Origin: Diphasiastrum complanatum
Taxonomy: Eukaryota; Streptophyta; Lycopodiopsida; Lycopodiales; Lycopodiaceae
Assembly: GCA_029204225.1 (NCBI GenBank)
Contig: CM055095.1
Location: 35,985,078-36,049,077 of the forward strand
Direction: 5' to 3'
DNA: 64,000 bases
Below the pieces are notes generated by a model that was not told where the DNA came from, did no database searches, and saw only the letters and a program-made list of their open reading frames with translations. Each line of letters opens with the position of its first letter. The stretch's first letter is position 1. This document shows, in pieces, positions 39,501 through 45,500 of this stretch. The translations under genes were made by a program, and so were the position numbers.

Positions 39501-42500
39501 ACCAAAAGATAGCGTCTGTGTAAGATAAACTGGAAGAATAGGCAAGCCCGAAACGTCCAGCCGTAAAAGATGTGTGCCATAATAATGTAGCTTGACCCTA
39601 TCTGGATCAGGATGTGACCATATAGTGCGTATGTAGCTCCGGTAAATCTGCTGTCTGATATAAGCATGGGTTCCATTCGGAAGATCAAGTGCGGATAAAC
39701 CCCAAGTCTGAAGAAGGGCTGAGACACTGCGATACCAAGAGTGCGTGGCTCCCTGATCTGCAAGGGTACAAGATGAAGTGAGAGCAACAACAATGTATCT
39801 GGAGGTATCTAGATCTGATACCCTGTGAAGAAAGGTGATGATCTGAAACATAGCACCAACAACTAATGGAGGAGAAGCAAACTCGGCTAGTATGATATCA
39901 TGTGGTACTGAGGGCTTAGCCCGAATTATCCTACTGAGCATGAGAATCTGGATACGAGTAAGATCTCTCCATGTATCGCGTGATAAATCAGGGCACCAAG
40001 TCTCAGCCGAATATAGCACAACTGGGGAGACAGTAGCAGAAAATAGTAGGCATCTAGTAGCAGGATCCTGCACATAATAAGTAGAGCAAAATCTCTCCAT
40101 ATGCACAAGAGCGGTATTCCCCTTGCGGAGCCTGGCGGTGGCTGCTGGTCGAAAAGTGAGTAGCGGACCAGAGAAAAGAACTCCCAAATAGGTGTAGGAG
40201 GTCACGATCTCAATCGGTAGCCCGTCATAATAGAAAATCACATCTCTCATATGCTGTCTGTTGGTGTTAAACACCATAATCTTAGTCTTCTTAAGGTTAA
40301 CCGTCAATCCCCAACGCTGGCAAAAGTGATGTAAAGCAGAAAGGTGACTCTGTAAACCAGCTGCAGAGGATGAGAGGAGAACCACATCATCAGCGTACAA
40401 GAGAATGGGGATAATAATGTCTGCTAGGGGACAGTCCTCTCCACCTTCCTCGCGAATAATCCGCTCGAGGTCATCTATATATGGTGCAAAAAGAGTGGGT
40501 GATAAGGGGCAACCCTGCTTCACCCCAATGGTAGAATGTATCTGTGAGGACCAGCCACTACCATCTCTGAAACGTGCCAAGACTCGCTCATATAAAGTAA
40601 TGATCGCAGCAATAGTATCCTCTGAAAAGCCAAGTGAAGACAGTCTCTGGAAAAGAAGATGTCGTGGAACAGAGTCAAAAGCTTTGCGAAAATCCACAAA
40701 GCAACAGTAAATTCTCTGTTTCCGATGTCGAGCCTCCTCAATAATGCATCTCAAAATGAAGATCTGGTCTGAAGTAGAATATCCCGGTCTGAAACCAGCT
40801 TGACCCATAGCGTGTAAACCCTCAGTTTCAGCAAAAGATCCAGTGACTGTCTGTAGTATAGAGCCATATATCTTAGCTAGAGTGTGACCAATCATAATGG
40901 TGCGGTAGTTTCCTACATTCATGGGATCACCTGCCTTGAGGATGGGGTGAAGGATATTAGTACACCAAGCCGTAGGAAAACCAGAAGTAACAGCTGTGTT
41001 AAAAACATGAGCAATGTAAGGGGAGATGAGATGTGCTACGGGCTTTAGGAAGTCTACACTTAAGGAGTCATAGTCAGTGGCTTTATTTAGTTTGGCATGT
41101 TTAATGGCGTTTTCAACCATGTCAGGGGTGAAAAGTGAGCAGTGGTCAGGTCTCGGTGAGAGTGAGGTAGGAGGAGAGTCCGTGGTATATAACTCCGTGG
41201 CATACTCGATCCAGGATTCGATGGCTATGGGGGCCAATGTTGAAGAGTGTCTGGTGAAATGTTTCCAGAAAAAAGAGGAGGAGGGTGAATCTAAAGAGTT
41301 GATCATTTTTTGGCAGAGTGATTGTAGGTACTTGATCTTCTTTGTTCTGGTGGTTCTATGATATTCTTTCTGGCATTGTTTGAGTGTGGCAGGGGAGTGT
41401 GACCTGGCATATGTCACATGATTGTGAAGAGAGCGGCATTCTGCATCATACCATCTGTTGTGAACACTTCTGTGAGATGATGTCGTTTTGGTGGGGAAGG
41501 ATGAGGAAGCAGCAGCTAAGAGGGATGTAGAGAGAAAAGTGGCTTGCTGGTCAATTGGTGCCATGAACGGGAAGTTAGCGAGTAGTTGGGATAAGATTGT
41601 GGTGTAATTAGTGAATCCAGATTGGGTGAAAGGAATACGTTTATGAGTGGGAAGAGAGCAAGAAATTTGCAAAGAAGAGGTTATGTGACCAAGTGAGATG
41701 TGTAAGAGTGAGTGATCGGAAATGGTAGGGGGTGTGATGGAGAAATCAGAAATGTGAGAGATCAAAGCAGGTGATCCAATGAAGTAGTCGACCACACTAT
41801 GTCCTCCACCATGAGGATAGCATGTATATGCTGATGAGGAAGGCCACTGTGTGAGGCCATTCAAAATGGCAAGAGCGTGTGTCTCTGCTAGAGTGATCAA
41901 CTGCTCCCCGAAAGATGTAGCTGGAGTGTCTGCATCCTGTGATACCCGGTCTAGCCCCATATCCAAAGGGTAAAGCCTGAGAAGATCCGTAGCTGCATGA
42001 AATTCGGTTTGTCTAGAGCTTGTGCGGGCGTTGAAATCACCTGCTAGTAAAATGGAACCCTGCTGAGAAAAGATAGCAATATCATCTGAGAGAGCCTGAA
42101 AAGGGTCCCCGCCAAACTCAGCAAACACTGAGGTCTGTGGAGCAAAATAGCATACAGCTATATAGATGTCCTGAGGTAATCCCAATAGTGAGCCAATAAT
42201 GTGTAACCAAATATAGCGAGCGTATGGATCTTGTTTAACCATCTGAACTGTGGTGTCTCTGTATAAACAAGCTACTCCTCCAGATCCTCGACAAGTTTTT
42301 CCCCTAACAAATGGACGAAAAGCAGAATGCCAAGAGTACTCCTGTATATTTGGAAGAGGATGATATAAGGACTCATGAGTTTCAGCCAACAACAAAATGT
42401 CGCATTTTCTAATAAAATCAGCAAAGTCTCCGGCTGATGACGAAGATAAAAAACCATTACAATTCCAGAAGCCAAGTCTCAAATTGGTAGGGGATCTCGG

Positions 42501-45500
42501 GTAGCTTCTATATCCGGGGGCCCCTAGTTCCTATTGTGGAAGGTCGAAAAATCTCGGTTTCCCGTCAATAAAAACAACCCTTTGCCCTTTCTCTTTCGCT
42601 TCAAGGATAATCTTTTTTCTTGCCAACCATTGAGTATTTGTTAAGTCATCATCCATATAAATGAAAGTACCTTTAAGCTTTGCCCTAAGCCGAAGGGCAG
42701 CATTGCGTTGTGAAAGCGAGCGGAACTTGATAAACAAAACATTGTCATCAAATTTACTGCGCCAAGCAGTATCAAAACCGTCAGCCACATGAGATAACTT
42801 GGAAATGAGCAAATCCGTAGCTTCTTCCAATGGTTTTCCACCATTGGCAATGCCTCTTACTCTAATGTTAAAGGCTTTTTTGGCCCTTCTGGCTTGTTCA
42901 CCCAAAACTGTCTCCAAATCGTTTTCCTTCGGAAAAGATGAAATCTGAGAGTGATTACCTTGCTTAAGGATCGATGTCGTTTCTTCAACCTGTTTTGCGA
43001 GTGATGAGAGTTTGCTGCCCATATCATCCGGTTTGAAGAGTGCTGCCCACGTTTTCGTCTCCTCGACTTGTTTCTCCAAGCTATTGATCTTGTTGGAAGT
43101 CTCCTCCAAGGCACTTTTTTCTGCAATTCGTTGCTTAAGATATATATTTTCTTGCTCAAGCTGCTCCACACGTTCCGTGACACCAAAAAGATCCTTAGCT
43201 AACTTGCTATTTTCAGCTTCAAAGAGGTGTAGTTGTTTCTTAAGTCCAAGAATTTCTTGCCGGATAAAACTAAGATCATAAGCAAAAAGACTTTCGGTAG
43301 GTTTGGAAGGAGTGTAGTCAATGGCAGCCATGTTGATAGTTTCTGTCACCGAAGACGGCTCCTCCATCACTACCGGTGATGAGAGAGAGAGAGAGAGAGA
43401 GAGAGAGAGAGAGAGAGAGAGAGATTTTATTAAAATACCCTAAGGTACATAGGACTAAGAAAAGGTACATGTCAAGTGTGCACATAGGAGCTTAAAGCTC
43501 AATCATCTATAAAACAATAAATGCAAATACAATGCATAAAGATGGCTGGCCCGGTCAGGATCCAATAGCCTGGAATCGTATATCATGATGCCCATCAGCA
43601 TGGAAGAAATGGTGGATGGTATGCTGTGAAGGTGTCACTAGATGTGCCATGGACCTCTGTCGCCGGGTAGGCTGTCGGTGTCGTCTCTGCTGCCGTGGCG
43701 CTCTGGGCTGTGGTCTAATAGCTGGTTGTCTCTCTGGCTGTCGACATGCTCTCTGCTGTTGATGTACGAAGGAATTTGGCCTCTCCATCTGAATTGCAGC
43801 CTATGGGTACCTCGGATCTCTGTCTCCAAAGGGGTATGCCCTCATCGATGCTCAGCTGTGTCAGGGATGTGTATCATCTAGTCTCCTCCTCAAGTCCTGG
43901 ATCATCAGTGCGACACATCTAGGGTCCTCATAAGATATCAAGGTAGAAAGTGTAACTGGGTGCTCTTTGAACAAGCAGTAGTACCTCCCCCGAATCTCAT
44001 AGTAGGCTGGACATCTGAAGAGGAAATGTGACTCGAAGAAACTCGAAACTGACCCATCGCTATCCGCAGACTGTGTGATATACTCCTCAGCAAGTAACTA
44101 GATACTATGGGGCAGCCAACCGGATCAAGAGATAGAAAGTGTGTACGATAAAACTCACTCCTGGTCCCCAATGGACCCTGCCAAGTGATATGAAGATATG
44201 ATCTGTAAAGGAGGCCTCTGATGCCACTGATCTGGATACCCAATCTAGATACCCAATGTGGAGAGGAGACGACAAGCCTAGGAGTACCATGAGAAAAGGT
44301 GTCCCTCTGAGTGTAGGCGTCGGGATGAAGATAGAGCTGCAATTGCATAGTGTGTACCCCCGTCCTGAAGATCATCTAAATGTCACAATATGGAATAAGG
44401 CCTCAATCTGAATGGGGGGGACCGCGAACTCCGCTAATATAATCTGGTGTGGTACTGAGGGCTTTGCCCGTATCATCCGGGAGAGCAAACGAATCTGGAG
44501 CCGGGAGATATATGTCCAATCACCATTCCGTTGTGATGGTGGGAAACTGTATCCGTGAGGAAACTGGTTGCTTCGGTAATTGGAGCCTTAGTATCTTCAA
44601 TTCCTCGCACCCGCACATTCATAGATTTATACTTCCGCATTTCTTCTTCGGATATGGTGGCTGAGATGATGCTATTGAAAGTGTGTGTACCTTCTTTACC
44701 GACTCTCTTTGAATAGAGAGGCCCATGTTTTGGTTTCCGCCTTATGTTGCTCAATTCGTTCCTCCAATTCTTGGATCTTTGTGGTGGTGGTGCTGGCTGG
44801 TTCTTCTCTGCTCAAGGCCTCTTCCAAAGATATGATCCGGGCCGTCATAGTTTGCTTCTCGATTGCCATAACTTTATTGTGGTTTTCATTTGACCCATTT
44901 CAATCCTTAGATAGCTAGATTCCAGTGTAATCTGCTCCACGTAAGAAAGAAGGTACTGTTCAAATGCCTTCGTAGGAGAGTAGGCTTCTTTAGGGAATGA
45001 GAGAGGATAATGAAAGGGGGCAGGAGAACCATGGAGGGAGGAGAGGGCCAAGGAAGCGGGGGGAGGGCTGAGTGCCTGCTGGGCAGCCATCGCTGCCTCA
45101 GCAGGGAATGGGAGCCAACGAGGGGGTGGGAAGGGCCAGCGAGGGGGTGGCAGGGGTAGGGGTAGGCTGAGCAGGCAGCGAGGGGATGGGAAGGGCCAGC
45201 GAGGGGGTGGGAGAGGTAGCAAGCAGCGAGGGGGTGAAAGCAGGCAGCGAGGGGGGGTGGGAAGGGCCAGCGAGGGGGTGGGATCAGGCAGCGAAGGGGA
45301 GGGAGGGGAGCGAGGGCTCCCCTTTTTCTTGGCCATGGAGAGGGTGGAGGTGGAGCGTGGATAGACTAGCGAGCAGCCATGGAGAGAGAGAGAGAGAGAG
45401 AGAGAGAGAGAGAGAGAGAGAGAGAGAGAGATTTATTAATGTCTCTTCCACGCCAAAAGGCATATAAGACTGGTAAATGTACAGCCATGGAGAGAGAGAG

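Follow-up and report, generated by a model that had tools for sequence, protein, structure and literature searches.

A 64,000-nucleotide stretch of the genome of the lycopod Diphasiastrum complanatum (hereafter the window; contig CM055095.1, positions 35,985,078 to 36,049,077) was found to carry long interspersed nuclear elements (LINEs) in which two open reading frames (ORFs), ORF1 and ORF2, share a single frame and are separated by just one TAG. These elements are two-ORF, L1-like retrotransposons lacking long terminal repeats (non-LTR), and the best explanation of their layout, to which we assign a probability of roughly 0.85, is that programmed readthrough of the UAG yields a minor ORF1-ORF2 fusion. 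The stop codon is followed by G and, at a fixed distance, by a hairpin that covaries between lineages; near-identical copies of the element are intact, and no AUG precedes the first endonuclease motif of ORF2. That readthrough occurs, how efficient it would be and that the fusion would be a working enzyme are predicted from such sequence features, and the same proposal, made in an earlier note on one of these copies (copy A), is well supported while retaining the standing of a prediction.

The ORF1-ORF2 junction in copy A and its relatives

Copy A lies on the minus strand. Its ORF1, counted from an internal methionine (278 aa, 42534..43367), ends at a TAG in the context UAG-GAA (42531..42533), and is followed by an ORF2 of 1183 codons (38979..42530) which itself ends in TAG, encodes an endonuclease, a reverse transcriptase and a CxxC...HxxxxC region, and is free of ATG before codon 97. 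The start of ORF2 includes a hairpin (42488..42526) whose outer stem CUAGGGG...CCCCUA and inner stem CGG...CCG are indicated by folding and covariation. The frame is open on both sides of the TAG at 42533-42531, as the earlier note had described; the 17 sense codons which it had counted between this TAG and the TTG at 42482 are in fact 16. The ATG at 43367 is internal, as the full-length ORF1 of the family begins 24 codons further upstream (MAPKKK..., 302 aa; either 302 or 306 aa among full-length A-family ORF1s), and the window copy is therefore 5'-truncated inside ORF1. Use of TAG as a sense codon in the host was rejected, because no other in-frame TAG is present in ORF1 or ORF2 of copy A and ORF2 terminates at one.

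ORF2 of copy A matched the endonuclease and reverse transcriptase families of Pfam (PF03372, 2.4e-14, and PF00078, 1.7e-32, respectively), and its best sequence matches in the PDB were R2 and human L1 ORF2p alike. No Pfam family exceeded the cut-off for ORF1. An AlphaFold2 model of ORF1, of moderate confidence (mean predicted local distance difference test score 65.5, predicted template modelling score 0.29), comprises a long helix at residues 32-110 and 117-139 (coiled coil), a part like an RNA recognition motif (RRM) at 166-230 and an alpha-beta-beta end like a C-terminal domain (CTD) at 244-275, with the junction stop lying three residues past the last modelled strand. The five top Foldseek matches of this model in the PDB were all human LINE-1 ORF1p (E 3e-5 to 1.1e-4, next match 1.5e-2; template modelling (TM) scores of just 0.22-0.30), and as modelled ORF1 is human L1 ORF1p-like by fold, with coiled coil, RRM and CTD.

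When the 1.74-Gb genome from which the window comes was searched and only the top-ranking of 39571 candidates were scored, at least 39 A-family copies emerged at 99-100% identity, 37 of these 39 being without a stop inside ORF2. The query started after the TAG, so that the TAG was not selected for, and a TAG was nonetheless present at the junction in all 30 A-family loci that were cut out. One 54-nucleotide junction is common to 28 of these loci, while the remaining two are off by one base. ORF1 (from the internal methionine) and ORF2 are both open in 27/30; counted from the full-length start, an ORF1 of 302 or 306 aa precedes an ORF2 of 1183 aa in 25/30, the full-length start string being missing in four loci and the frame broken in one. 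In ORF1 and ORF2 without the linker, the variant codons comprised 54 synonymous and 50 non-synonymous ones and a single stop, and within the 16 linker codons there were 2, both synonymous; the amino-acid changes are fewer than would be expected without selection, an expectation set by judgement rather than computed. Five of the loci (L013, L014, L015, L025 and L029) form a sub-family of about 99.1-99.4% identity with a 12-nucleotide insertion, in which ORF1 is 306 rather than 302 aa long (L013, L014, L015 and L029) or broken (L025).

Three more lineages, B, G/C and X, which are 45-60% identical to A in the endonuclease where measured, have the same layout as A, namely TAG-G, about 6 nucleotides and then a hairpin ending about 40 nucleotides after the TAG. 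Copy B on the minus strand retains the last 60 ORF1 codons (37572..37751), the TAG (UAG-GGA, 37569..37571), the hairpin GGGCCCC...GGGGCCC (37529..37562) and the N-terminal, endonuclease part of ORF2 (36753..37568, first ATG at codon 76), in the in-frame arrangement that the earlier note had reported for this second copy. The third copy to which the note had extended that arrangement, copy C on the minus strand, bears it out in part: its TAG (UAG-GAA, 47822..47824) and hairpin (GGUCCC...GGGGCC, 47781..47816) share a frame with RFFD, the final block of ORF1, and with some 24 codons of ORF2, but frameshifts interrupt its ORF1 and its ORF2 breaks off. The ORF1 end and linker of copy C are those of G. 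Two plus-strand fragments, one of an X-lineage endonuclease (21587..21990) and one of a G-lineage ORF2 (61255..62294), supplied the X-family and G-family queries.

The B, G and X stretches were all hand-picked from match lists, with long open frames or low identity guiding part of the choice. The B family gave 142 scored matches (77-100%), from which two sets of 20 junction stretches were examined, and the TAG is in the expected register in 33/40. It is so placed in 16/20 of the first set (L047 with a deletion after the TAG) and displaced by indels in three; in the second it is in register in 17/20 and displaced in one, while one stretch has CAG and one has TGA behind unrelated upstream sequence. 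For the G family (150 scored matches) a junction was contained in 16 of 20 stretches and a TAG in 16/16 of these, L085 having a frame-shifting deletion after the TAG and L097 an extra stop before it; of the other four, three were cut off at a (TC)n array and one was unrelated. The 20 stretches taken from 150 scored X-family matches comprised nine X junctions with TAG-G, two G-like junctions with TAG, one decayed junction with TAG (L120) and eight without a visible junction, L109 among the latter having TAA where a deletion joins ORF1 to the endonuclease. As X junctions were recognised by the TAGG motif, the nine are not an independent count and an X copy with another stop may have been missed. 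Within the X set the TAG is in frame with the endonuclease in L101, L103, L106, L107, L110, L111 and L113, and out of that frame through indels in L115, L117 and L120. TAG-G is also kept at three further junctions met by chance; L024 is in frame, and indels have shifted the frame in L058 and L059. The identity of the stop is thus not random (30/30 A loci, 33/40 B stretches, 16/16 G junctions), ORF2 is in the frame of ORF1 in the intact copies examined, and an origin of the TAG by chance nonsense mutation was rejected because it recurs across many copies and lineages. The context is UAG-G in all of 12 chosen representatives, being UAG-GGA in 10 and UAG-GAA in A and C. No relatives were found in the viral and genome contig collections searched. 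As to individual matches, the genome search reported an open frame of 1561 codons for L048 (G000:C1075), a stretch of the first B set, and one of 2314 codons for the G-family match G000:C7:4425992-4426231, whose junction region (L086) contains the TAG.

Copy A has its first ORF2 methionine at residue 97, copy B at residue 76 and B' at residue 120; in G members it falls at codon 50. The earlier note had placed it about 80 residues in, which does not hold for A, and within the endonuclease, which does: in copy A it lies behind both WNCNG (residue 22) and AETHES (residue 49), so that no ATG precedes either motif. The codon-50 ATG of G members sits after WNCDG and before ETHES. Since the first ATG is behind WNCNG or WNCDG in A, B, B' and G, translation from an AUG would leave out the first endonuclease motif. 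A scan from -200 to +75 placed the nearest ATG of A at -97, those of B at -41 and +68 and those of C at -43 and -47, the ATGs of B and C all being out of frame, and detected no AUG that overlaps or adjoins the ORF1 stop in A, B or C. The linker between the TAG and the first endonuclease strand is 16-18 codons long, open and alike between lineages.

The hairpin downstream of the stop codon

The stem spans about +7 (+5 in A) to +40 after the TAG in each lineage. The B hairpin, GGGCCCCCC...GGGGGCCC, has a folding energy of -24.2 kcal/mol in most B stretches, with values of -8 to -15 in a small number that are damaged, the G hairpin, GGGGUCCCC...GGGGCCCC, of -24 to -30 kcal/mol (-20.9 in L085 with its deletion), and the X hairpin, GGGUCUUUC...GAAGACCC, of -24.1 kcal/mol in L106 and of -13 to -23 in others. 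Bases vary between lineages while pairing is kept, one pair being represented by G-C, U-A, C-G, G-U and U-G and two others by C-G and U-A; pairing begins about 6 nucleotides downstream of the stop and is maintained by compensatory changes across the four lineages. Where the earlier note had recognised a GC-rich palindrome after the TAG, the stretch is indeed GC-rich, but it represents just the 5' arm of a hairpin of about 35 nucleotides. A simple GC-rich palindrome was rejected as an account of the structure, as the energies alone are unremarkable and only the shared, covarying geometry stands out.

Folded jointly, window copies A, B and C gave -18.2 kcal/mol as compared to -5.25 +/- 2.18 for column shuffles (0/2000), with 2/2000 for codon-order shuffles (4/4000 on a larger run) and 0/4000 for same-peptide recoding with the codon usage of the element. 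When each of the four lineages A, B, G and X was represented by a single member, RNAalifold gave -20.9 kcal/mol, with 0/4000 for codon-order shuffles and, for same-peptide recodings, 0/4000 with either of two codon models. For the 12 representatives the value was -19.4 (0/2000 in each of two shuffles), and 89.6% of cells pair as compared to 81.0 +/- 1.7 in shuffled alignments (0/500) and 33-67% when the alignment is slid; changes on both sides were found in 20 cells as against 9.2 when shuffled (0/500), and the covariation score was 0.444 (0/500 shuffles). The rows of the hairpin alignments are related, so these shuffle counts are not probabilities. Over the 265 codons after the TAG, the longest run of codons identical between B' and B, of 11, falls in the hairpin, while elsewhere such runs do not exceed 6.

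Readthrough and other routes to ORF2

By readthrough, most ribosomes would halt at the UAG and release the RNA-binding ORF1 protein, while a minority, aided by the hairpin about 6 nucleotides past the UAG, would decode the UAG as an amino acid and continue, giving an ORF1-ORF2 fusion with endonuclease and reverse transcriptase. It is likely that this whole group of LINE lineages, about 50% apart in the endonuclease, makes its reverse transcriptase only by such hairpin-driven UAG readthrough, the hairpin having been rebuilt by compensatory change with its position and shape kept, and that, in a Gag-Pol-like manner, enzyme activity resides in the fusion instead of a free ORF2 protein. Type III viral readthrough, as outlined in PMC3542737, generally employs a UAG, then G or a purine-rich stretch, and a 3' structure, the contexts listed there including UAG-GGR with a 3' structure in Tombusviridae, UAG-G with a pseudoknot in gammaretrovirus gag-pol and UAG-R with an extended stem-loop in epsilonretroviruses. 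The LINE junctions resemble these in the in-frame UAG, the next G (UAG-GGA in B, G and X), the structure a few nucleotides on and a downstream ORF that is in frame and lacks its own AUG start, and resemble retroviruses as described in that source in having a structural protein upstream and a polymerase downstream. They differ from the type III viruses outlined there in belonging to non-LTR retrotransposons, in having an interrupted stem-loop and in a spacer of about 6 rather than about 8 nucleotides. Unlike in gammaretroviruses, no pseudoknot or long-range partner was found in a search limited to one 7-nucleotide loop complement of A, which does not occur between the junction and the 3' end of that copy, and distal loop pairing was rejected on this ground.

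A number of observations weigh against readthrough. Taken singly, the hairpins of A, B and C are unremarkable as compared to dinucleotide shuffles (z of -1.43, -1.16 and -0.80, respectively), and that of copy A alone, a member of a young family, holds an ordinary rank of 38 among 1447 codon windows and is equalled in stability by 422/2000 same-peptide recodings, likewise an ordinary figure; the corresponding counts are 42/2000 for B and 16/2000 for C. The joint score of A, B and C was reached by 40/4000 same-peptide recodings at a GC content of 0.8 in third codon positions, pair-shuffle controls with these three copies gave 13 to 39 of 500, and the hairpin signal is clear only once more lineages are added. 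Even among the 12 representatives, pairs with a double change (6; 151/500) and pair types (404/500) are not above shuffles. With regard to the junction itself, the B copy L075 carries CAG, and in L048, one of the 20 stretches of the first B set, a deletion removed the TAG together with the hairpin and fused the frames of ORF1 and ORF2. The UUG at the start of the endonuclease strand, common to A, B and B' and not to C, could be a weak start. Finally, the LTR retrotransposon Tca2 of Candida albicans is described as having gag and pol split by a UGA with a possible 3' pseudoknot, and thus resembles the LINE junctions in its stop-separated genes and 3' structure, albeit with UGA as the stop, and its junction alone gave no readthrough in yeast (PMC2194720).

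The main rival is termination-reinitiation, whereby a ribosome held by the hairpin would restart at a non-AUG codon, for example the UUG at codon 17 or 18, and produce a separate ORF2 protein as in SART1, and this we consider improbable. According to PMC5972666, SART1 uses a UAAUG stop-start with a downstream structure for ORF2 translation, and L1, with an inter-ORF spacer of 63 nucleotides, has an unconventional ORF2 start for which termination-reinitiation has been proposed. The present elements are, like SART1, two-ORF LINEs in which an RNA structure follows the ORF1 stop, and like mammalian LINE-1 they combine a coiled coil-RRM-CTD ORF1 (at low TM) with an endonuclease-reverse transcriptase ORF2; furthermore, the in-frame UUG of A is the sole near-cognate codon among the first 25 after the TAG, and a UUG stands at codon 18 of B and at codon 20 of B'. 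Unlike in SART1 as described in that source, the ORFs lie in one frame and there is no AUG at the stop, none overlapping or adjoining it in A, B or C, and unlike in L1 a single TAG stands between in-frame ORFs where L1 has its 63-nucleotide spacer. Copy C, moreover, is without a near-cognate codon before codon 20, and reinitiation needs neither an open linker of similar sequence and near-fixed length nor a common frame for ORF1 and ORF2.

Removal or rewriting of the TAG in RNA, through a small intron at the junction or through editing, would also give a minor fusion mRNA, and an apical-loop AG that does not vary among the 12 representatives is an imaginable 3' splice site. We regard this route as very unlikely, given that inspection by eye, rather than with a splice predictor, revealed no good upstream 5' splice site, that the route leaves a hairpin kept by compensatory changes unexplained, and that reverse transcription of a spliced RNA would erase the site, whereas 30/30 A loci keep the TAG. 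There is just as slender a chance that the hairpin serves packaging, reverse transcriptase binding or internal initiation, that the TAG is incidental and that ORF2 is translated by a cap-independent route resembling an internal ribosome entry site. Functional hairpins do occur in LINE RNAs, and the family has one in its 3' untranslated region (UTR), but this account sits poorly with the fixed distance between TAG and hairpin in four lineages and the TAG-G kept alongside. Two ORF1-only elements, L060 (minus strand) and L031 (about 1763-1200, minus strand), which we take to resemble HAL1-type derivatives, also bear on it, albeit two are few: their ORF1 ends in TGA and runs into the 3' UTR with no ORF2, and a LINE-type 3' hairpin and a repeat tail follow a few hundred bases after the TGA. 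This fits TAG-G and the hairpin belonging with ORF2, although these two elements may be deletion derivatives.

Element ends and the production of ORF2 protein

The 3' UTR hairpin of copy A, GTCTT...AAGAC (38769..38797, minus strand), is followed by GTTAATAA. The 3' UTR hairpins of the window have a near-constant outer stem GTCTT/AAGAC (one with an AGAGAC end) and a varying, mostly paired inner stem, followed by TTAATAA and (TC)n, and were located on the minus strand at 38797-38769, 27811, 45582, 45470 and 48592 and on the plus strand at 22305 and 23005; they are likely the putative stringent recognition hairpin of the reverse transcriptase of these LINEs. A (TC)41 array (38660..38741, minus strand) marks the 3' end of copy A, and a (TC)22 array (43381..43424, minus strand), the tail of an upstream LINE, abuts its truncated 5' end. 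Several LINE copies of the window sit head to tail against such arrays, LINE ends abutting (TC)n at 43381-43424, 38660-38741, 27705-27770, 23060-23135, 48508-48545 and 45382-45543, and at 45382-45595 a LINE 3' end, (TC)n tail included, is present as a 112-bp tandem duplicate. A CT-rich run follows most of the 30 A-family loci, L003 and L011 being the exceptions, and A-family copies have the same fixed ends beside (TC)n, which suggests that (TC)n is either a tail or a microsatellite-targeted insertion site.

How ORF2 protein is made by two-ORF LINEs has long been an open question. The routes described in PMC5972666 and PMC5009743 comprise reinitiation in SART1, unconventional initiation in L1, bypassing as an idea for TART and L1, and StopGo/2A. 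No LINE with stop-codon readthrough was described in the open-licence literature searched, and the novelty of a readthrough LINE is limited to that literature. These elements represent a natural candidate readthrough element from a cellular genome, together with a record of covariation. If the readthrough interpretation is true, it would add a further answer beside reinitiation and unconventional initiation as to how LINEs produce ORF2 protein; the ratio of ORF1 to ORF2 would be fixed in the style of Gag-Pol, and the enzyme may reach its own RNA by being covalently fused to ORF1 protein.

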